Positions 7,090 through 40,440 of a DNA stretch of 41,389 bases are shown piece by piece. Both the position numbers and the translations under genes were made by a program. This DNA comes from Clostridiales bacterium (GTDB taxonomy: Bacteria > Bacillota > Desulfotomaculia > Desulfotomaculales > VENG01). The DNA lies in the NCBI GenBank assembly GCA_021736985.1, contig JAIPEW010000025.1:1-41389 (forward strand), read 5' to 3'. How positions within the stretch are numbered: the first letter of the stretch is position 1; every line of letters begins with the position of its first letter. The notes beneath the pieces are model-generated. The model was not told the DNA's origin. It worked only from the letters and a program-made list of their open reading frames with translations, and searched no databases.

Positions 7090-7155
7090 GTGACACGGGG
7101 ACGGGGTTATTGACACATCACGCGTGATGTGTCAATAACCCCGTCCCCGTGTCAC
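7090..7155. repeat. Perfect 66-bp palindrome, REP-like
   Basis: Every base from 7090 to 7122 pairs with 7155 down to 7123: two 33-bp arms with no spacer, centred on ACGCGT. Each arm contains GACACGGGGACGGGGTTATT followed by GACACATCACG. This wording (GGGGACGG...TTGACAC) resembles repetitive extragenic palindromes linked to IS200-like REP-associated transposases in clostridia; that link is from memory and no transposase is in the window. A palindrome without a loop can form a cruciform or act as a bidirectional transcription stop. It contains the pabC stop codon and its last seven codons. Confidence 0.9.
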
Positions 7156-7962
7156 ATAACACATTAATTTTTTTGTTATGTTTCCTAGTTTGCCTGTTCC
7201 TATGTTTTTATTGTTGAAACATACCAGGGGCATGATTCCCATCAGCGAGTTGGTTAAAAAAGCTTCTCCTGCATCCTTTAATTCTTTCGGCTGTACAGGG
7301 CGTTCTTCTGTTTCAATACCTGCTGAATGTGCCATTTCTATAACCTTTTCTCTCGTGATGCCCGGCAGCAGTCCTGAGGATACGTCCGGGGTGATAAGTT
7401 TATTTTCTCGTACTATAAACAGGTTGCTGACGGTGCCCTCGCAGAGATTTCCGGCCGTATTTAAAAAAATACCCTCGTTCCAGCCGTTATAAGCAGCTTC
7501 CTGGCGTCCGAGTATATTTTCCATGAAGTTTAACGTCTTCAGAAAAGTGAAAAGAGAATTTTCATTGCGGCGGTTTTTTAAAAGCCCGGTTTGAAAACCT
7601 TCTTGGTAATGGCAGTCTTCATATGGTTGTCCCGGTCTGGCTGTTATAACCATGGTGGTGTTTTCCGGGCTTTCACCGGCGCTAATGGTGAGGCGCAGGC
7701 TGCCGTTATTCAGTGCATTGGCGTTTATCAATTCAAACAGCATGGAAGTTATCTCTTCTTTGTTATACGTGCAGGCAATATTAATTTGGGGTGCTGAATT
7801 GAGAAGCCTGTCCAGGTGTTTTTTTACAAAAAGCGGTTGCCCGTTATATACGCGTATAGTTTCGAAAAGCCCGTACCCGTATAAAAAACCCCTGTCGTAT
7901 ATCGATATTAATGCTTCATCTTTTTTTACAATATTGCCGTTAATGCTGGTGTACCAGGCCAT
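7132..7962 (-). CDS. pabC: 4-amino-4-deoxychorismate lyase (PabC)
   Basis: PLP enzyme of aminotransferase class IV (fold type IV), 276 residues. It most likely removes pyruvate from aminodeoxychorismate to give p-aminobenzoate for folate. Visible residues: the PLP lysine in FLKTLNFMENILGRQ (K142) and the conserved Glu in AGNLCEGTVSNLF (E175); the N-terminus has the family motif DRGFLYGYGLFETIRV. D-amino-acid and branched-chain aminotransferases share these motifs; the position 23 bp after pabB argues for PabC. ATG at 7962 has GAGAGGAG upstream. The final residues VTRGRGY and the stop are encoded by one arm of the 66-bp palindrome, so the native C-terminus was probably replaced when the element inserted. 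Confidence 0.9.
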   Translation of the reverse strand: MAWYTSINGNIVKKDEALISIYDRGFLYGYGLFETIRVYNGQPLFVKKHLDRLLNSAPQINIACTYNKEEITSMLFELINANALNNGSLRLTISAGESPENTTMVITARPGQPYEDCHYQEGFQTGLLKNRRNENSLFTFLKTLNFMENILGRQEAAYNGWNEGIFLNTAGNLCEGTVSNLFIVRENKLITPDVSSGLLPGITREKVIEMAHSAGIETEERPVQPKELKDAGEAFLTNSLMGIMPLVCFNNKNIGTGKLGNITKKLMCYVTRGRGY

Positions 7963-7985
7963 TTTTTCACTCTCCTCTCTTTAAT

Positions 7986-9380
7986 CTACAGTCCCAGTGC
8001 GTTTATAAGTGCCCTGGCCTTGTCCAGGGTCTCTTCATATTCCGCGAGCGGCTCTGATCCGGCAGTTATACCGCCTCCTACCTGGAAGTACAGCCTGTCT
8101 TCTTTTTTTATTATAGTACGTATTACTATGTTTAAGTCGGCACGACCGTCAAATCCTATATATCCTATCGATCCCGTGTATATGCCCCTTCTTACCGGTT
8201 CTAGTTCTTCTATGATCTCCATGGCTCTTATTTTCGGGGCCCCGGTTATCGAGCCCCCGGGGAAAGATTCTTTTAAAAGATCTACAACATCTTTTTCTGC
8301 GGGCAATTCTCCTTCTGCAGTGGAAACCAGGTGAAAGACAGTGGCGTATTCCTCCAGGCAGACAAGTTCCGGTACTTTTACAGAGCCCACACGGCAAACG
8401 CGTCCCAGGTCGTTGCGTTCTAAATCCACTATCATCATTAGCTCTGCATGATCTTTTTCGCTGTTCACAAGTTCTTCCCTGAGCATGCGCTCCTTTTCTA
8501 TCGTTTTTCCCCTGGGCCTGGTGCCTTTTATCGGCCGCGTCTGTACTTTTTTGCCGTCTACTTTCATAAAACGTTCCGGTGAGGAACTAATGACTTTAAA
8601 ATCCCCGAAATTTAGATATGAGGCAAAAGGAGCAGGGTTTATCTCCCGAAGTTTTTTATATAATTGCCAGGTGTCCCCCCTGTAGTCTGTAAAAAAACGC
8701 TGGGTCAGGTTGGCCTGGAAGATGTCGCCGGCATATATGTAATCTATAACTTTTTGTACTGCCTGCGAGTATTCTTCTTTTGTAAAGTCTCCGCGAAGTT
8801 TGCCCCTCACCGGGGTGGTTCCGCTAACATATTTGCGTGTATTTCTGTTTAAAAGGGCTTCCATTTCGTTGAGCCTTTTATCAGCCCTTTTAAGTGCTTT
8901 ATTTCCTTTTTCAGGCAAGCCGGTCGAAATAATATATACCTTATTTTCTACATGGTTTACAGCTGCAATTACGTCGTAGAATCCCAGGCTGCAGTCCGGG
9001 GTTTTTAGATCATCTTCGGTATCAACAGGCAGTTTTTCAAACTGCCGTCCCAGGTCATAGCTAAAATATCCCACGGCGCCTCCGTTTAACGGAAATCCCG
9101 TGCTGCATGCAGGCATAGCATATAAATTTAACAGGCGCTGCAGTTCGTCCACGGGTGATGCGTGATAACAATATGTGTTGTTGTTTTGATTTAACTTTAT
9201 TTTTCTGCCTTTAGCTTCAAATGTGATAAAAGGAAGTGCTCCCAGGAAAGAATGTATTCCTGATTTTTCCCCGTAAAGCCCTGAATCTAAAAGAAAACTA
9301 TAAGGTGAATTTTTAATATTTCCGTATAACTGCAGGCTGTCTGGTTTTAAATCAACCTGCTTGATCAGCGGCAGGCTCAA
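7986..9380 (-). CDS. pabB: Aminodeoxychorismate synthase component I (PabB)
   Basis: Chorismate-using enzyme of the anthranilate/ADC synthase family; with PabA it makes 4-amino-4-deoxychorismate. The diagnostic motif is TRPIKGTRPRG: a Lys in PIKGT (about residue 285) marks PabB, whereas TrpE has PIAGT. Other family signatures are SSSPERF, ELMMIVDLERNDLGRVC and PGGSITGAPKIRAMEIIEELE; the length of 464 residues is normal. An upstream GTG at 9389 is in frame, but GGAG lies directly against it. TTG at 9380 has GGAGGTG six bases upstream and is preferred here. The start lies inside the end of pabA (about 29 bp overlap, 38 with GTG), so translation is coupled and subunit ratio kept. Confidence 0.93.
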   Translation of the reverse strand: MSLPLIKQVDLKPDSLQLYGNIKNSPYSFLLDSGLYGEKSGIHSFLGALPFITFEAKGRKIKLNQNNNTYCYHASPVDELQRLLNLYAMPACSTGFPLNGGAVGYFSYDLGRQFEKLPVDTEDDLKTPDCSLGFYDVIAAVNHVENKVYIISTGLPEKGNKALKRADKRLNEMEALLNRNTRKYVSGTTPVRGKLRGDFTKEEYSQAVQKVIDYIYAGDIFQANLTQRFFTDYRGDTWQLYKKLREINPAPFASYLNFGDFKVISSSPERFMKVDGKKVQTRPIKGTRPRGKTIEKERMLREELVNSEKDHAELMMIVDLERNDLGRVCRVGSVKVPELVCLEEYATVFHLVSTAEGELPAEKDVVDLLKESFPGGSITGAPKIRAMEIIEELEPVRRGIYTGSIGYIGFDGRADLNIVIRTIIKKEDRLYFQVGGGITAGSEPLAEYEETLDKARALINALGL

Positions 9381-32727: not shown

Positions 32728-34233
32728 TTGCGGGGATTAGAAGCCGGGCAATATCGCCCGCTTACAGAGAGTGATATTCATTCGATAAATGAAACCAGTA
32801 TTGATATACTGCAGGAACCAGGGGTGCAGTGTAATAACATAAGAGCCCTGGATATGTTTGAAAAAAACGGGGCTGTTGTAGATAGAGAAACTAAGAAAGT
32901 AAGAATACCGCGGGGTATGCTGGAGGATGCTATAGCTTCAGCTCCTTCCCGGGTGACCTTGTGTGGTAGGAATGATAAGGATGATCTTTTATTGGAAGGC
33001 AAAAGAACACACCTGGGTACAGGAGGGACAGTTCTCAATGTTTTAGACATGGAAACTGGAAAAAGGCGTCAAACTGTTATTGAAGACATGAAAAACTTTG
33101 CCCGCCTGGTTGATGCACTGGATAATGTGCACTTTTTTATGCTTCCGCTGTATCCCAATGATATAGACGTAGAGGATGTGGATGTAAATCGTTTCTGGTG
33201 GGCAATGGCCAATACTACCAAGCACGTCATGGGGGGAGTTTATACAATTGATGGTGTTCGAAATGTTATAAATATTGCTGAACACGTAGCAGGCAGTGCA
33301 AACAAGCTGCGGGAGCGTCCTTTTATTTCCATGGTAACCTGTATGATGAGCCCGCTGATTATTGACGATACTTATGGCGGTCTACTCATGGAAGTTGCCA
33401 GTCATGGTATTCCCGTGGTATGTCCTGCAGAACCCCTTGCCGGGGCAACGGGCCCCATAACGCTGGCTGGAACGGTAGCTGTTTCCAATGCCGAAAGCCT
33501 TGCCGGAGTTGTACTGGCCCAGTTGACTAACAGGGGTACACCGACAATTTATGGAACTGTAGCTACTACTATGGATATGAAAAGCGGGTATTACTTATCC
33601 GGCAGTATTGAGAGCGGGCTGATTAACGCAGCCTGTGCACAGATGGCCCAGTTCTATCAACTGCCTGTTTATGCTACTGCAGGTATGTCAGATTCTAAGC
33701 TGCCAGATATTCAAGCAGGATATGAAAAAATGGCTACTAATATAATTACAGCCCTGGCCGGGGCTAACTATATACACGATGCTGCAGGGTTCCTGGAGTT
33801 TTGTACTACTATTTCATATGAACAGATGGTAATAGATGATGAGATAATAGGCATCTGTATGAGAGCAGTAAAAGGTATCGATACATCTCTGGATTCCCTG
33901 GCCAGAGACGTTATTAAAAGCGTAGGTGCCGGCGGCAATTTTTTAACCAGCACTCACACGATGAAGTACTGCCGCAGTGAATTTCTTAACCTCTCTTTGG
34001 GTGATAGAAAAAGCCGCAAAAGGTGGGAAAAAGATGGTGCTAAAGACTGTGCTGAAAGAGCAAAAGAAAAAGCCAGGAGAATTCTTGCTGAACACAGTCC
34101 GGAACCAATTCCCAGTGAAATATTGGAAAATATAAGATCTGTCTATCCGCAGTTAAATATACAGTACAGCAGTGGGGGTGTGCAGAGTCTTAATAATAGG
34201 AGAATTAATAAACGGCAGCAGGACGGTTGTTAA
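32728..34233 (+). CDS. MttB-family (trimethylamine methyltransferase superfamily) protein, non-pyrrolysine
   Basis: 501-residue barrel methyltransferase of the COG5598/MttB superfamily, which moves a methyl group from a quaternary or tertiary amine to a corrinoid protein. Family features: N-terminal INETSIDILQEPGVQC, HLGTGGTVLNVLDMETGKRR, PLAGATGPITLAGTVAVSNAE and PVYATAGMSDSKLPDIQAGYEKM. The frame is full length with no internal TAG, so it does not depend on pyrrolysine; characterised relatives of this kind (MtgB, MtpB, MtcB) demethylate glycine betaine, proline betaine or carnitine. The substrate here is unknown. Start TTG 32728 with AGGGAGGA 7 bases upstream. Its last 62 bases overlap the next gene. 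Confidence 0.9.
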   Translation: MRGLEAGQYRPLTESDIHSINETSIDILQEPGVQCNNIRALDMFEKNGAVVDRETKKVRIPRGMLEDAIASAPSRVTLCGRNDKDDLLLEGKRTHLGTGGTVLNVLDMETGKRRQTVIEDMKNFARLVDALDNVHFFMLPLYPNDIDVEDVDVNRFWWAMANTTKHVMGGVYTIDGVRNVINIAEHVAGSANKLRERPFISMVTCMMSPLIIDDTYGGLLMEVASHGIPVVCPAEPLAGATGPITLAGTVAVSNAESLAGVVLAQLTNRGTPTIYGTVATTMDMKSGYYLSGSIESGLINAACAQMAQFYQLPVYATAGMSDSKLPDIQAGYEKMATNIITALAGANYIHDAAGFLEFCTTISYEQMVIDDEIIGICMRAVKGIDTSLDSLARDVIKSVGAGGNFLTSTHTMKYCRSEFLNLSLGDRKSRKRWEKDGAKDCAERAKEKARRILAEHSPEPIPSEILENIRSVYPQLNIQYSSGGVQSLNNRRINKRQQDGC

Positions 34234-34987
34234 ACAGGCCGTTGTTGAACATGATGAAACTGTTATAAGAGATTTAGCTGTACAACAGGTAGAGGCTGGT
34301 GCAGATTATATAGATGTTAATATATCCGTGGGACAGGGGGATAAAGAAGCAGAAGATATGGTCTGGGCAATAAAATTAATCGAGGAAGTTACTACTGTCC
34401 CCCTTGCCGTGGACAGCGCCAACCTGCAAGTTATGGAAGCGGGGTTAAGGGCCCGCAAAAACACTGTGCTAGTTAATTCAGTTAGCGCTGAAAAACACCG
34501 CATGGAACCATTTTTAGACCTGTGTGCAGAATATAATGCTGCTGCTGCAGCACTGCCAATTAAAGACAGTGGAATACCACCTGCCCCGGAGGAAAGGTTG
34601 GAGATATGTCAGCTGCTGGCAGAAAAAGCGCGGGATAGAAATATTCCAGTGGAAAACATGTATTTTGACCCGCTTGTTTTGCCCCTTGGCGTTGATACCT
34701 ATAATTCTTATGCAGCAATAGAAACTATAAAAAAACTAAAAAAAACTATTCCGGGTGTCAAAACAACAGCAGGAATAAGTAATGTATCTTACGGGCTGCC
34801 CGGGAGGAAGTTGTTAAACCAAGTATTCTTAGTATTATGCATGCAGGCCGGTCTTGACGGGGCTATTTTAGATCCTACAGATCAGGGTTTAATGGCTGCG
34901 GTGAAAACTACAGAAGTTCTTTTAAATAAAGATAAAATGTGCATGAATTACCTGCAGGCATATAGAAAGGGTTTGCTAAATAATTGA
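34172..34987 (+). CDS. Methyl-corrinoid:tetrahydrofolate methyltransferase (MtgA-like, pterin-binding)
   Basis: About 271-residue barrel of the pterin-binding family (MeTr/MtgA), which passes the methyl group between the corrinoid protein and tetrahydrofolate. Signatures: LIIGELINGSR, AGADYIDVNISVGQGDKEAEDMVW, TTVPLAVDSANLQVMEAGLRA, VLVNSVSAEKHR, PLVLPLGVDTYNS and TTAGISNVSYGLPGRK. The start is uncertain: the frame has only GTG at 34172 and 34178 before the conserved LIIGE, and the nearest purine-rich site (GGGGGTG 34174-34180) overlaps both. Translation may rely on coupling to the upstream gene, which it overlaps by 62 bp. Confidence 0.9.
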   Translation: MGVCRVLIIGELINGSRTVVKQAVVEHDETVIRDLAVQQVEAGADYIDVNISVGQGDKEAEDMVWAIKLIEEVTTVPLAVDSANLQVMEAGLRARKNTVLVNSVSAEKHRMEPFLDLCAEYNAAAAALPIKDSGIPPAPEERLEICQLLAEKARDRNIPVENMYFDPLVLPLGVDTYNSYAAIETIKKLKKTIPGVKTTAGISNVSYGLPGRKLLNQVFLVLCMQAGLDGAILDPTDQGLMAAVKTTEVLLNKDKMCMNYLQAYRKGLLNN

Positions 34988-35003
34988 GGGAGAGGGTGGT
35001 ATT

Positions 35004-35630
35004 TTGTACCAGAAAATAAGTCTTGCTGTTCAGGAGGGTGAAATAGAAGAAGTTGATCAATTAACAATAAAATCTCTAGAAAAAGGTAACGATCCCCTGG
35101 ATGTATTGAATAATGCATTAATGTCTGGAATAGAGATAGTAGGACAGAAGTTTGCTGACGGGGAACTGTTTATTCCCGAAGTTATGATGTGTGCACAGGC
35201 ACTGCAGGCGGGAATTGATAGGTTAAATCCTTTTTTAAAACAGGATGAAAATCCTCACAGGGCTAAAATTGTAATAGGGACTGTTGCCAATGATGTGCAC
35301 GACCTGGGTAAAAACCTGGTTAAAATGATGTTAACTGCAAACGGCTATGAAGTAATTGACATGGGAGTTAATGTGTCAGCTGAAGAGTTTGCCGGGGCAG
35401 TAAGGGGACACAACCCGGATGTTGTTGGTATGTCTGCTCTTATTACTACTACCATGCTAGAAATGTCAAAAACTATAGAATATATTAAAACACAAGGACT
35501 TCATAACGGTTCTCTAAAAATACTGGTCGGTGGGGCCCCGGTAACAGAAAAGTTTGCTAAAGAAATAGGGGCGGACCTGTATGCTGATGACGCTATCGAA
35601 GCAGCAAGGATTCTTAGAGAAATACTGTAA
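35004..35630 (+). CDS. Corrinoid (B12-binding) methyl-carrier protein, MttC/MtgC-like
   Basis: 208-residue carrier that holds the methyl group on cobalt. N-terminal helical cap domain (1-85), then the B12-binding Rossmann domain with the base-off/His-on motif DVHDLG (His99 is the lower cobalt ligand), VVGMSALITTTM and GGAPV (173-177). Start TTG 35004 with GAGAGGGTGG upstream. It sits directly between the pterin-binding methyltransferase and the MetH-activation-like protein, 16 bp from each, so all should be made together. Confidence 0.94.
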   Translation: MYQKISLAVQEGEIEEVDQLTIKSLEKGNDPLDVLNNALMSGIEIVGQKFADGELFIPEVMMCAQALQAGIDRLNPFLKQDENPHRAKIVIGTVANDVHDLGKNLVKMMLTANGYEVIDMGVNVSAEEFAGAVRGHNPDVVGMSALITTTMLEMSKTIEYIKTQGLHNGSLKILVGGAPVTEKFAKEIGADLYADDAIEAARILREIL

Positions 35631-36534: not shown

Positions 36535-36571
36535 CAAACATTTGCCAGTACGTACATATGTTTGCTATAAT
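36535..36571 (+). promoter_or_regulatory. Probable parM-parR promoter with overlapping operator-like repeats
   Basis: TTGCCA (36542-36547), 18-bp spacer, TATAAT (36566-36571). An inverted repeat CAAACAT (36535-36541)/ATGTTTG (36558-36564) covers the promoter, and the spacer holds AGTACGTACA (36547-36556), which also occurs in the 11-bp repeat array at 38946-38955. This fits autoregulation by the ParR-like protein. Confidence 0.5.
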
Positions 36572-36656
36572 ATGTATAAGATTTAGAGCAGATTAAATTA
36601 ATAGCAAAACACTATTTTATTGTGTATTTAAGTAATTTAAAGAAAGGATGTTAATT

Positions 36657-37622
36657 ATGAAGGTTGTTTCTGTTGATTTAGGTTATTCCACGGTAAAAGG
36701 TATAAATTCAAATGGCTGTTCTGTAAACTTTAATAGTTATGCAGCACCATACGTTAAATATCCCATGGAAGAAGATTTAAACGGTGTAGTAAGTGTCAGC
36801 AGTTTTAACTCGGAATCAAAATATTTTTATGGTAAAAAAGCAATTAGAGAAGGCGACAAATGCGGCGGGTTTACCATGGATCAAGAAAAACATACCCATC
36901 CTTACCATGATATTTTAATGCTTACAGCAGCAGGATTGCTAAATTACAAGCCAGGTGATGTATTAGCAGTAGGTGTTCCTATCTCGTACAGGAATCAGAA
37001 GAGCATTTTAAAAGAGCACTTGCAAAAACTTCATGCTTTTGTTGGAGTAGATGGAAAGGGATCTACACGAATTTCATTTAATGACATCGTTGTATTAACC
37101 CAGGGCATAGTAGGTTTTTCATTATTAGATAACCTGCCTGAAGGTATACTAGTATCAATTGACAGTGGGGAAAAGACAACGGATATATCTGTTGTAGAAC
37201 ATTATGATGGGGATATTCAACCTGTTCCTGCAAAGTGTTTTTCAATCGAAACGGGTTTTTATTCTGTAATTGATAATATTGCAATGCTTTTCCAGGAGCA
37301 AACTGGTTATCCCATATCTTATGTAAAGGCTCGTGAGATAGTAGATAAAGGTTGTATAACTTTTAAAGGTAAGAAAATAGATTTTAATAAAACTATTCAT
37401 AAAGTAAAAAAGGATTTAACACGTTCTATTGTGAGTTCTATGTACTCGCACCTGGGAGAAACAGCAGATTTTACAGCAGGATTTTATTTGCTGGGCGGGG
37501 GTGCAGATGCACTGCCTTTCAGCAGTTTCATCAATGCTGAACTAATGCAGGACCCGCAAATGGTAACAGCAAAAGCTTATTTGAACTTAGTTGAAGAATC
37601 ACTGGGAGAAGAAGCGGTTTAG
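36657..37622 (+). CDS. Actin-like ATPase, ParM/StbA family
   Basis: 321-residue actin fold protein. Nucleotide-binding motifs in order: phosphate-1 SVDLGYSTVKG (residues 5-15), phosphate-2 SIDSGEKTTDISVV (near 168) and the adenosine motif YLLGGGADALPF (near 281). Relatives are ParM of plasmid R1, Alp proteins and archaeal Ta0583-type actins; ParM filaments push apart plasmids bound by ParR at parC. ATG 36657 has AAAGGA about 9 bases upstream; ATG 36648 is in frame but too close to it. 57 bp before a ParR-like gene. On a chromosome its role could be segregation of an integrated element or a host function; there are no replication genes nearby. Confidence 0.88.
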   Translation: MKVVSVDLGYSTVKGINSNGCSVNFNSYAAPYVKYPMEEDLNGVVSVSSFNSESKYFYGKKAIREGDKCGGFTMDQEKHTHPYHDILMLTAAGLLNYKPGDVLAVGVPISYRNQKSILKEHLQKLHAFVGVDGKGSTRISFNDIVVLTQGIVGFSLLDNLPEGILVSIDSGEKTTDISVVEHYDGDIQPVPAKCFSIETGFYSVIDNIAMLFQEQTGYPISYVKAREIVDKGCITFKGKKIDFNKTIHKVKKDLTRSIVSSMYSHLGETADFTAGFYLLGGGADALPFSSFINAELMQDPQMVTAKAYLNLVEESLGEEAV

Positions 37623-37679
37623 CATTTATATACTGTTTAACTATTGTACATGCTTTGTAAACAACGGGGGGGACTGGTT

Positions 37680-38006
37680 ATGGGTAGGAAAATTAAAGGG
37701 AAAAAAGGCAAGAGGTTTGATCTCTGGTTATCTGAAAATCATCCTTTTTTTAATATTCCACCGGGGGAACGCAGCCGGTGGCTGCGGTTTGTTATTGAAG
37801 AAAAGCTGGGTGTGGCGAGTACTACGCATCAAGCTCCTGCCCTGGTTAATACTTCGCCTGCAAACGGTGAAAATAAACCATCTTATTATGCAGATAACCA
37901 GTTATCTAATAATACCAGCAGGATATTTGAGCCCGGCAGAGATAAGATTCAACAAGGAAAGCCAGTAGAGCCGAAAAAAAAGAACGAAGCATTATTAAAC
38001 TTTTAA
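37680..38006 (+). CDS. Small ParR-like ribbon-helix-helix DNA-binding protein
   Basis: 108 residues. The N-terminal half (KRFDLWLSENHPFFNIPPG then ERSRWLRFVIEEKLG) matches the shape of ParR proteins: one strand, then helices with the GERSxxLRxxI pattern typical of ribbon-helix-helix repressors. The second half is Asn-, Pro- and Ser-rich and probably disordered, ending in a basic-hydrophobic tip (PKKKNEALLNF) as in ParR tails that contact ParM. ATG 37680 follows CGGGGGGGA at 37665; another frame opening at 37644 adds residues of no known use. Identification as ParR rests on pattern and on its place 57 bp after parM. Confidence 0.72.
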   Translation: MGRKIKGKKGKRFDLWLSENHPFFNIPPGERSRWLRFVIEEKLGVASTTHQAPALVNTSPANGENKPSYYADNQLSNNTSRIFEPGRDKIQQGKPVEPKKKNEALLNF

Positions 38007-38022
38007 AAAAAACATATTTTAA

Positions 38023-38060
38023 ACCGAAAAAAAAGACCACCGGTTGATGGTCTTTTTTTT
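38023..38060. terminator. Bidirectional terminator between the ParR-like and NAD-binding genes
   Basis: GACCA (38035-38039) pairs with TGGTC (38048-38052); A-run before and T-run after (T to 38060) extend the stem and serve both converging genes. Confidence 0.88.
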
Positions 38061-38061
38061 T

Positions 38062-38745
38062 CTATAATTTTTCTTCTTTTTCTAGTTCAGCTAATAACTC
38101 CAGAGCAAACGGGCCAATGTCATTATAGGCATAGGATTTAATTGACCCGGCAGCAGCAGCTCTTATGGCAGAATTAATAACTTCATCTGTAAAACCTTTT
38201 TTAGATAAGATTTTTTGTATCCTGAGACCTGCCCGGAAAGCTTCGCGAGTAGCTAACGTGTTGACCTCTTCTACTTGACTTTCATCACCTTCTACAACCT
38301 GTCCCAGGACGCTAAAAATTTCTTTTGCAACAGTTAAACTTTTTTCACTTTCAGCATCAACTATTATTACTGGAGACTCGTTCATTTCCCTGTAATGCGT
38401 TACCATTTTTGCCCCTACCAGATTTTCTGGATAACTGCATACAGGTTTTAGTTCATTTTTTAGTACGGTAGTAGCAATATTGATAACTACAGTATCCTTG
38501 TTTAAGTATTTATCAACATTTTTTAAAGCATCTGCCGTGACTTTTGGGGGGAGTGCTAAAATTAATACTTTACAATCAGTCACTTTAGATGAAGGAGCAT
38601 AAGTGCCGCCAACTTTTGAAGCAGTATCCCTGCCTTTTTCTTCATTTTCATCATAAACAAAGATTTCACAGCGTTCATTAATACCACTGGCAATAATGCT
38701 GCCCATGCGTCCAGTTCCCATAATTAGTACTTTCATTTTTTCCAT
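38062..38745 (-). CDS. NAD(P)-binding oxidoreductase, ProC/F420-dependent-reductase-like
   Basis: 227-residue Rossmann protein. Dinucleotide motif VLIMGTGRMGSIIASGI at the N-terminus, the ALPPKVTADALKNV strand-helix and a C-terminal helical domain with TREAFRAGLRIQ and AIRAAAAGSIKSY. The pattern is closest to pyrroline-5-carboxylate reductase (ProC) and the coenzyme-F420-dependent NADP oxidoreductase family, but it is short for ProC (about 265-270) and lacks a clear proline-site motif, so the substrate is open. ATG 38745 with GGAGG 7 bases upstream. It is convergent with parM-parR and downstream of the 11-bp repeat array. Confidence 0.78.
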   Translation of the reverse strand: MEKMKVLIMGTGRMGSIIASGINERCEIFVYDENEEKGRDTASKVGGTYAPSSKVTDCKVLILALPPKVTADALKNVDKYLNKDTVVINIATTVLKNELKPVCSYPENLVGAKMVTHYREMNESPVIIVDAESEKSLTVAKEIFSVLGQVVEGDESQVEEVNTLATREAFRAGLRIQKILSKKGFTDEVINSAIRAAAAGSIKSYAYNDIGPFALELLAELEKEEKL

Positions 38746-39193
38746 GAGTAGACCTCCAAGTAGATATATTTATGTTACATACATCATGTGTTTATGACGT
38801 GTATAGATTTAGAATTTTAGGGATAAAAAGGTAAAGTCATTAAATCAATATGTATCTAATTAGTTATATAATATATTATTAATTAATGTTTATCAAGATA
38901 ATTTAATATTCTTAATTATATGATTAATATATATATACGCATAAAGTACGTACAATCTCCGTACAATATCCGTAAGTTGTCCCGGTAGTATACGTATGAG
39001 TTCCGTAATTATTATAACTGTTAGATTGTAACTCAAAAAAATTTTTTTGCTGAACATGGTAATTTATGGGTATTACACCGGCCTTATTTAAAAATGTGTT
39101 AACAATCTGCCCCCTGGGACTTCACTCACGCCAGAAAAGTTTACATGTTTTGTTGTGAGCAATTCAAGTCAATAACTGTCCCCATGCTATATT
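38746..39193. other. Gene-free region between the NAD-binding and zinc-ribbon genes
   Basis: 448 bp. From left to right: the ribosome-binding site of the minus-strand NAD-binding gene; an imperfect inverted repeat ATACATCAT...ATGACGTGTAT (38780-38804); a very AT-rich stretch (38840-38938); the 11-bp repeat array (38939-39015); and a REP-like remnant (39167-39185). No open reading frame with a ribosome-binding site. Confidence 0.7.
38939..39015. repeat. Array of 11-bp direct repeats, parC-like iterons
   Basis: Seven consecutive 11-bp units in register: GCATAAAGTAC, GTACAATCTCC, GTACAATATCC, GTAAGTTGTCC, CGGTAGTATAC, GTATGAGTTCC, GTAATTATTAT. The clearest common form is GTAnnnTnTCC (units 2, 3 and 4); units 1, 5 and 7 are degenerate. 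One helix turn per unit places sites on one face of the DNA, as in the parC site of plasmid R1, which is built of 11-bp ParR-binding repeats. The ParR-like gene is 0.9 kb away. Confidence 0.6.
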
Positions 39194-39642: not shown

Positions 39643-39693
39643 AAAAAATGTTTTTAAATAACAAATCGAATGTATCTCTTGGGTGGTGGACAC

Positions 39694-40440
39694 ATGAAAA
39701 ATGTTAGCGAGCAGGAATACGAAATTTTAAGGATATTAGACAAAGAAGAAAATTTCATCGGATCAGGTTATCTTTGTAAATTACTAAATGATCAGGGGAT
39801 AAATATAAGTGAAGCAACTGTTGGAAGAGTCTTAAGTGAAATGGATCGCAGAAGTCTAACTATTAAGTACGGGTATAAAGGGCGGGTTATTTCCTCAGAA
39901 GGTAGACAAGCACTTGAGTATATTGTCAATATAAAGAGACAAAACATGTGTGGAGAGCGCATTTTAAATATTGTTAATTCCAATAAGAAGCAGGATATTA
40001 TAGATATACTTGTTGCTAGAAGGGCTATTGAGAGAGAATTATCAAGGCTTGCTGCCGTTAATGCTTCAGAGGAAGAAATTGAAATAATGAAAAAAGTTCT
40101 TCACGAGCAGGAAGAATGTGTTTTGAAAAATGTAATGACAGCTGAAAAAAATGAAAAGTTTCACAAACTAGTAGAAAGGGCAGCTAAAAACAAGTTTTTA
40201 GCTGCTTCTATGAATTTAATACGCCAGGGAAAACAAATATCTTATATCCTGGAGAATATAAGAAAAGAAGTAAAGGGGACCCTGGCTGTAGAGCATACAG
40301 CTATTTTAAAAGAGATTATAAATCGCAATCCCGAAGGAGCAGAAGAAGCTATGATTGCGCATATAGAAAGCCTTGTTTCTGACGTGGATAAGTACTGGGA
40401 AAATAAATATTGCAGGGATGATGTAAAAAAACAGGAGTGA
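39694..40440 (+). CDS. Transcriptional regulator: winged helix plus FCD ligand domain
   Basis: 248 residues. The N-terminal winged helix (about 1-75; EILRILDKEENFIGSGYLCK...SEATVGRVLSEMD) is of the NrpR/RNase R 'HTH_12' kind, not the usual GntR wing. The C-terminal 150 residues form an FCD domain as in FadR-type regulators: all helical, with candidate metal ligands His in EKFHKLV, AVEHTAIL and MIAHIESL. Such domains bind carboxylic acids or other small metabolites. ATG 39694 with GGTGGTGG upstream; the frame opens at 39670. Its target is not known; the divergent zinc-ribbon gene and the corrinoid genes are candidates by closeness only. Confidence 0.82.
   Translation: MKNVSEQEYEILRILDKEENFIGSGYLCKLLNDQGINISEATVGRVLSEMDRRSLTIKYGYKGRVISSEGRQALEYIVNIKRQNMCGERILNIVNSNKKQDIIDILVARRAIERELSRLAAVNASEEEIEIMKKVLHEQEECVLKNVMTAEKNEKFHKLVERAAKNKFLAASMNLIRQGKQISYILENIRKEVKGTLAVEHTAILKEIINRNPEGAEEAMIAHIESLVSDVDKYWENKYCRDDVKKQE

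Follow-up and report, generated by a model that had tools for sequence, protein, structure and literature searches.

Gene organization of the parM-parR locus

The stretch of DNA analyzed here (the window, 41,389 nucleotides) corresponds to contig C24 in a draft genome of 2.84 Mb. Core chromosomal genes are found on it, including those for EPSP synthase, homoserine dehydrogenase and an amino acid kinase as well as cmk, ispH-S1, der and spoIVA, and the parMR locus is therefore chromosomal. The genes are arranged in the order tRNA-Val, parM, parR, a minus-strand ProC-like gene and an AT-rich gap that holds an array of short direct repeats. Upstream of the tRNA gene we observed a corrinoid methyltransferase cluster (32728-35630), whose products are a trimethylamine methyltransferase-like protein, a methyltetrahydrofolate methyltransferase and an MtgC/MtbC-like corrinoid protein. 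The features of the locus are the following:

36542-36571, plus strand: parMR promoter-like sequence, TTGCCA-18-TATAAT with a TG before the -10 (consensus scan, pattern match only)
36549-36559, plus strand: lone TACGTACATAT unit within the -35/-10 spacer of the parM promoter (sequence)
36657-37622, plus strand: parM, actin-like ATPase, 321 aa (Pfam, PHROG and structure-profile matches)
37623-37679, plus strand: parM-parR gap, with no TMCGTA or CCGG unit, unlike in relatives
37680-38006, plus strand: parR, 108 aa, predicted ribbon-helix-helix protein (homology to genes next to parM in relatives)
38026-38061, plus strand: terminator-like stem-loop 3' of parR (consensus scan)
38062-38745, minus strand: NADP-binding, ProC / F420-oxidoreductase-like gene between parR and the array (PF03807, TIGR00112)
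38923-38955, minus strand: part of the array plus its AT-rich left flank, aligned in inverted orientation to the parM-parR gap of a second locus on contig C51 (local alignment; blastn 85% over 33 nt)
38936-39012, plus strand: candidate parC / ParR-binding array of seven 11-bp units (shuffles, genome-wide pattern search, match to the C51 gap)

An earlier note on this DNA had placed a ParM actin and a ParR-like gene close to the repeats, with a minus-strand gene in between, and the coordinates above agree with both statements. ParM resembles actin-like families over its whole length and matches PF17989 (ALP_N, 7.9e-20), PF21522 (5.1e-27) and the partition protein family PHROG 691 (1.2e-35). Among solved ParMs, the closest by sequence profile is pCBH ParM, followed more weakly by Dh-cParM1. 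A search for viral or plasmid relatives of this ParM found none. An alternative in-frame ATG start lies at 36648, and an AF2 model computed from two sequences was unusable (pLDDT 38).

The 108-residue ParR has no Pfam or NCBIfam match and is homologous to the genes directly 3' of parM in the C51 locus, in Desulforamulus putei and in the genomes G052 and G088. A strand-turn-helix pattern, with the strand KRFDLWL, is visible in its sequence. A weak AF2 model (mean pLDDT 61.5) contains helices at residues 22-25 and 28-43, and a fold search with this model returned nothing significant. The protein ends in a hydrophobic tail (EALLNF), conserved as ALLNF/ALLEF/ALLDF, which is a plausible candidate for a ParM-binding peptide. 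Concerning membership in type II partition systems, an actin-like ParM ATPase is present and a small ParR-like gene adjoins parM, while the repeated sites lie about 930 bp downstream of parR, near the operon and not adjoining it. The lone TACGTACATAT unit in the parM promoter may be a ParR autoregulatory operator; as a single copy it could also have arisen by chance. The ProC-like protein matches PF03807 (3.5e-10) and TIGR00112 (6.1e-12), the latter below the TIGR00112 cut-off.

An array of seven 11-bp units

The array consists of seven 11-bp units with the core TMCGTA, which read in order TACGCATAAAG, TACGTACAATC, TCCGTACAATA, TCCGTAAGTTG, TCCCGGTAGTA, TACGTATGAGT and TCCGTAATTAT. Six of the seven contain a TMCG(T/C)A core, and unit 5 (TCCCGG) is weak. 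The iterons that had been claimed at 38939-39015 are real, in the same register offset by 3. Self-identity reaches 0.55 at lag 11 and 0.50 at lag 22, compared to approximately 0.13-0.37 at the other tested lags, and no 11-bp array within the 41-kb window scores better. The array could still be a chance or non-specific AT-rich, microsatellite-like repeat, since degeneracy is seen in unit 5 and in the outer flanks and the conventional tandem-repeat score is low (Tandem Repeats Finder detects just the best 2.4 copies). However, none of 300 dinucleotide shuffles of the region 38746-39190 equaled the 7-copy score, and 2000 shuffles yielded at most two in-register TMCGYA cores against the six observed. 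Together with the independent match to C51 described below, this makes a chance origin very improbable. A reading of the array as an RNA structure was dropped, because its folding was no improvement over shuffles and Rfam has no family at the site, the upstream tRNA being the sole Rfam match.

The gap around the array had been described as AT-rich and featureless. It is AT-rich, but it holds promoter-like sequence to the left of the array and a genome-repeated stretch to its right. The latter comprises the short repeat GAGCAATTCAAGTCAA and its neighbors at about 39138-39183. This repeat has five copies in the genome and is also found beside the C51 parM (L031:530-574) and on contigs C2, C4 and C9 of G000; it might have mediated a rearrangement of the array. 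The promoter-like sequence to the left (TTGATA-17-TATTAT, consensus scan) is that of the minus-strand ProC-like gene and lies about 40 bp from the array. Such a position upstream of a promoter is typical for regulator sites and counts against a parC. Accordingly, an ordinary transcription factor that controls the ProC-like gene could use the array as an upstream activating site or operator. PhoB-type regulators bind 11-bp direct repeats, and a gene for an FCD-domain regulator is located at 39670-40440, 0.66 kb to the right of the array, so that a PhoB/OmpR-type regulator or this FCD-domain protein would be possible candidates. We return to this explanation below.

A second parMR locus carries the same motif

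The genome encodes at least three parMR loci. The one on contig C51 (5.9 kb) is the closer paralogue, with ParM 77% and ParR 53% identical to the proteins of the window. Comparison of the two parM genes gave a dN of 0.15 and a dS of 1.9 (dN/dS about 0.08), which indicates strong purifying selection and a retained function. The third locus (L032, about 7111-8669) encodes a ParM with 39% identity and has TGTCCGGACA-type repeats in its parM-parR gap.

A genome search for further iteron copies had been proposed. Across all 2.84 Mb, the pattern TMCGTA-N5-TMCGTA was found at four places, of which three belong to the array and one to the C51 parM-parR gap; the reversed control pattern has no occurrence. 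A longer version of the pattern, searched in 113 genomes of the order, matched exactly only in the source genome, and its matches with one mismatch in the other genomes were at control level. In the own genome, pairs with one mismatch were likewise at control level and revealed no further arrays. We also noted two degenerate triplets of TMCGTA-like units with 11-bp pitch (G000:C23:45507-45534 and G000:C28:80283-80310), which may represent additional, weak binding sites for ParR or have arisen by chance in coding sequence.

When the C51 gap was locally aligned to the whole 41-kb window, the array was the best match with a score of 39, followed by 26 for the next one, and none of 1000 shuffled gaps did as well. 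The matching 33 bases lie on the opposite strand; among them are the variant CGCATAA unit, TACGTACAA as the unit that follows, and a flanking ATTAAT. We read this as common descent of the array and the C51 gap with inversion and relocation, while a likeness due merely to the sharing of a binding motif is the weaker alternative. The unit comparison rests on local alignment, because a MAFFT alignment of single units misplaced two reverse-strand C51 units. Syntenic conservation, sought through the ProC-like gene, yielded distant matches only.

A possible correspondence between gap motif and ParR beta-strand

Most relatives have, between parM and parR, a repeated motif that is over-represented and specific to the locus. 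The closest relatives, D. putei, G052 and G088, carry TCCGGAC sites there, many of them in 11-bp pairs such as GTCCGTACATT-GTCCGATTCTA. Further relatives have TTACCGGTAA, TTCCGGAA, GGTGTGAC or TGTCCGTACA as gap motif. In an exploratory comparison, the gap motif appeared to follow the strand of ParR that is predicted to contact DNA. All 16 loci with Glu at position 3 of this beta-strand have a CCGG-rich gap, against 3 of the 15 loci with another residue (Fisher p 3e-6, a value that is too strong since several of the compared rows are orthologues of each other or duplicates). An Asp-x-Trp strand is found in the ParR of the window, of C51 and of the distant G058. The two other Asp-x-Trp loci, C51 and G058, have CCGTAC sites in their parM-parR gaps, and the array shares this CCGTAC core, whereas the gap of the window itself has no such site. 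The pairing of Glu with CCGG and of Asp-x-Trp with CCGTAC is exploratory because the loci that suggested it also served to test it. A weight matrix built from the CCGG sites of relatives did not single out the array, as the core base differs, and a 7-mer enrichment test was blind to both the C51 gap and the array because their units vary.

These data bear on the transcription factor explanation introduced above. Elsewhere in the genome the exact paired motif is found only at the paralogous parM-parR gap, seven units are long for a regulator of this type, and the motif fits the strand type of ParR. We therefore consider control of the ProC-like gene by an ordinary regulator as quite unlikely. 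In favor of a parC-like site, as the earlier note had read the array, speak the motif of the same 11-bp pitch in the C51 gap, the inverted C51 match and the agreement between ParR strand and motif. Against it stands the distance of about 930 bp from parR down to the array, with an opposing gene in between, while the repeats of relatives sit in the parM-parR gap. This displacement is unusual. Of the two origins that had been offered, a rearranged or a new system, the location of the relatives' repeats favors rearrangement.

Chromosomal location and relation to mobile elements

The spoIVA gene lies on the same contig as the array. In ten genomes of the order, its position, worked out by hand from genome coordinates, corresponds to about 49-98% of the distance between dnaA and the point facing it on the circle, and consequently the array is probably located in the terminus half. 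Since the genome also contains a ParB homologue, a role of the array as centromere of the main chromosome is unlikely.

In G052, the parMR genes are situated within a region (L034 2129-14538) that also encodes a tyrosine integrase, a TraG/VirD4 coupling protein, an HD-domain protein and topoisomerase III. This setting resembles a conjugative element, and the chromosomal parMR described here may thus descend from one. A scar of an integrated element at tRNA-Val was considered and rejected: no attachment-site duplication of the adjacent tRNA was detected, its 3' end being present once in the genome, and the rest of the annotated window consists of core chromosome genes.

Hence, the array could be bound by ParR and still not act as a centromere, either as a regulatory or titration site together with the unit at 36549, or as the remnant of a plasmid or conjugative element that became integrated and has ceased to move DNA. 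The conjugative-element-like setting in G052 would fit, and with a contig probably in the terminus half and a ParB in the genome a centromere is not obviously needed. On the other hand, parM is under strong purifying selection, the length and regular register of the array fit a filament-docking assembly better than a lone operator, and no duplicated attachment site was found at the tRNA-Val. We regard a non-centromeric function as unlikely.

A model for the displaced array

Taken together, we propose that a chromosomal ParMRC system uses the array as its parC-type, centromere-like site, to which its ParR would bind, and assign a probability of roughly 0.74 to this sequence-based interpretation. 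One dimer of the predicted ribbon-helix-helix ParR would occupy each TMCGTA unit, at a spacing of 11 bp. Neighboring dimers would share roughly one face of the DNA and form a short ParR-DNA assembly. If the system resembles R1 and other ParMRC systems, the C-terminal tails of ParR would grip the end of a ParM filament, and the filament might push or position the piece of chromosome that bears the array. The array itself would be a relocated and inverted descendant of the parC that is located between parM and parR in relatives. Since the C51 system has the same motif, either ParR could bind either site. With two ParMR paralogues and one motif at two presumed chromosomal sites, ParM filaments might even link or space chromosome regions. 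We consider this doubtful, but if true, such linking of two sites would be a chromosome-organizing use of an actin rather than plasmid partition.

Chromosomal ParMs polymerize in vitro, and a recent report gives a ParR-bound chromosomal parC for one of the two systems that it characterizes (PMC12270681). The locus described here offers a concrete candidate parC along with a same-motif paralogue as internal control, and the relation between the ParR strand residue and a CCGG or CCGTAC core might provide a simple rule for finding the parC of other chromosomal ParMR loci. Thus, what chromosomal ParMs act on becomes directly testable. Whether a chromosome has adopted a plasmid-style machinery for moving DNA could be tested at this locus.

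Comparison with known ParMRC systems

In plasmid R1, parC lies upstream and overlaps the parM promoter. Unlike in R1, at most one unit (36549) is found in the parM promoter here, so that the array itself has no overlap with it, the array is located downstream and the repeat sequence is different. Common to both are 11-bp direct repeats, which in R1 are the ParR sites (PMC9426499), and at least two such repeats are required for binding by R1 ParR (PMC9426499). The pCW3-family ParMRC systems of Clostridium perfringens show family-specific ParR-parC recognition, and one family has two 8-bp repeats 3 bp apart, hence the same 11-bp pitch as the window (PMC9426499). In contrast to our locus, these systems are plasmid-borne, with parC upstream of parM and a different motif (PMC9426499).

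Closer are D. putei (L039), G052 and G088, with ParM about 48-50% and ParR about 30% identical to those of the window and with 11-bp paired sites. Unlike the array, their sites are TCCGGAC, lie inside the parM-parR gap and are separated by spacers of various lengths.

The chromosomal systems Dh-cParMR-1 of Desulfitobacterium hafniense and Cb-cParCMR of Clostridium botulinum (J Biol Chem 2025, PMC12270681) are likewise chromosomal parM-parR pairs of anaerobic Firmicutes with a predicted ribbon-helix-helix ParR. D. hafniense has several parMR loci per genome, as found here, and the passages of PMC12270681 that were consulted contain no parC description for Desulfitobacterium. The ParR of C. botulinum binds a chromosomal parC with repeats in EMSA; this parC comprises three palindromic repeats adjoining the operon, compared to seven contiguous 11-bp units here. 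Its position is after parR in a figure legend and "immediately upstream of Cb-cParMR" in the text (PMC12270681), and by the legend a downstream position has some precedent. Different from both systems, as far as described there, our array lies about 930 bp past parR with an opposing gene between, and its motif is common to a second parMR. The suggestion of a new chromosomal type II system therefore holds for a variant with a displaced array and not for a new kind of system, since chromosomal ParMR and an EMSA-bound parC have been published (PMC12270681). Chromosomal ParMR and a ParR-bound chromosomal parC (PMC12270681) as well as 11-bp ParR sites (PMC9426499) are already known; new here is the displaced, contiguous 11-bp array together with a paralogous locus that carries the same motif.
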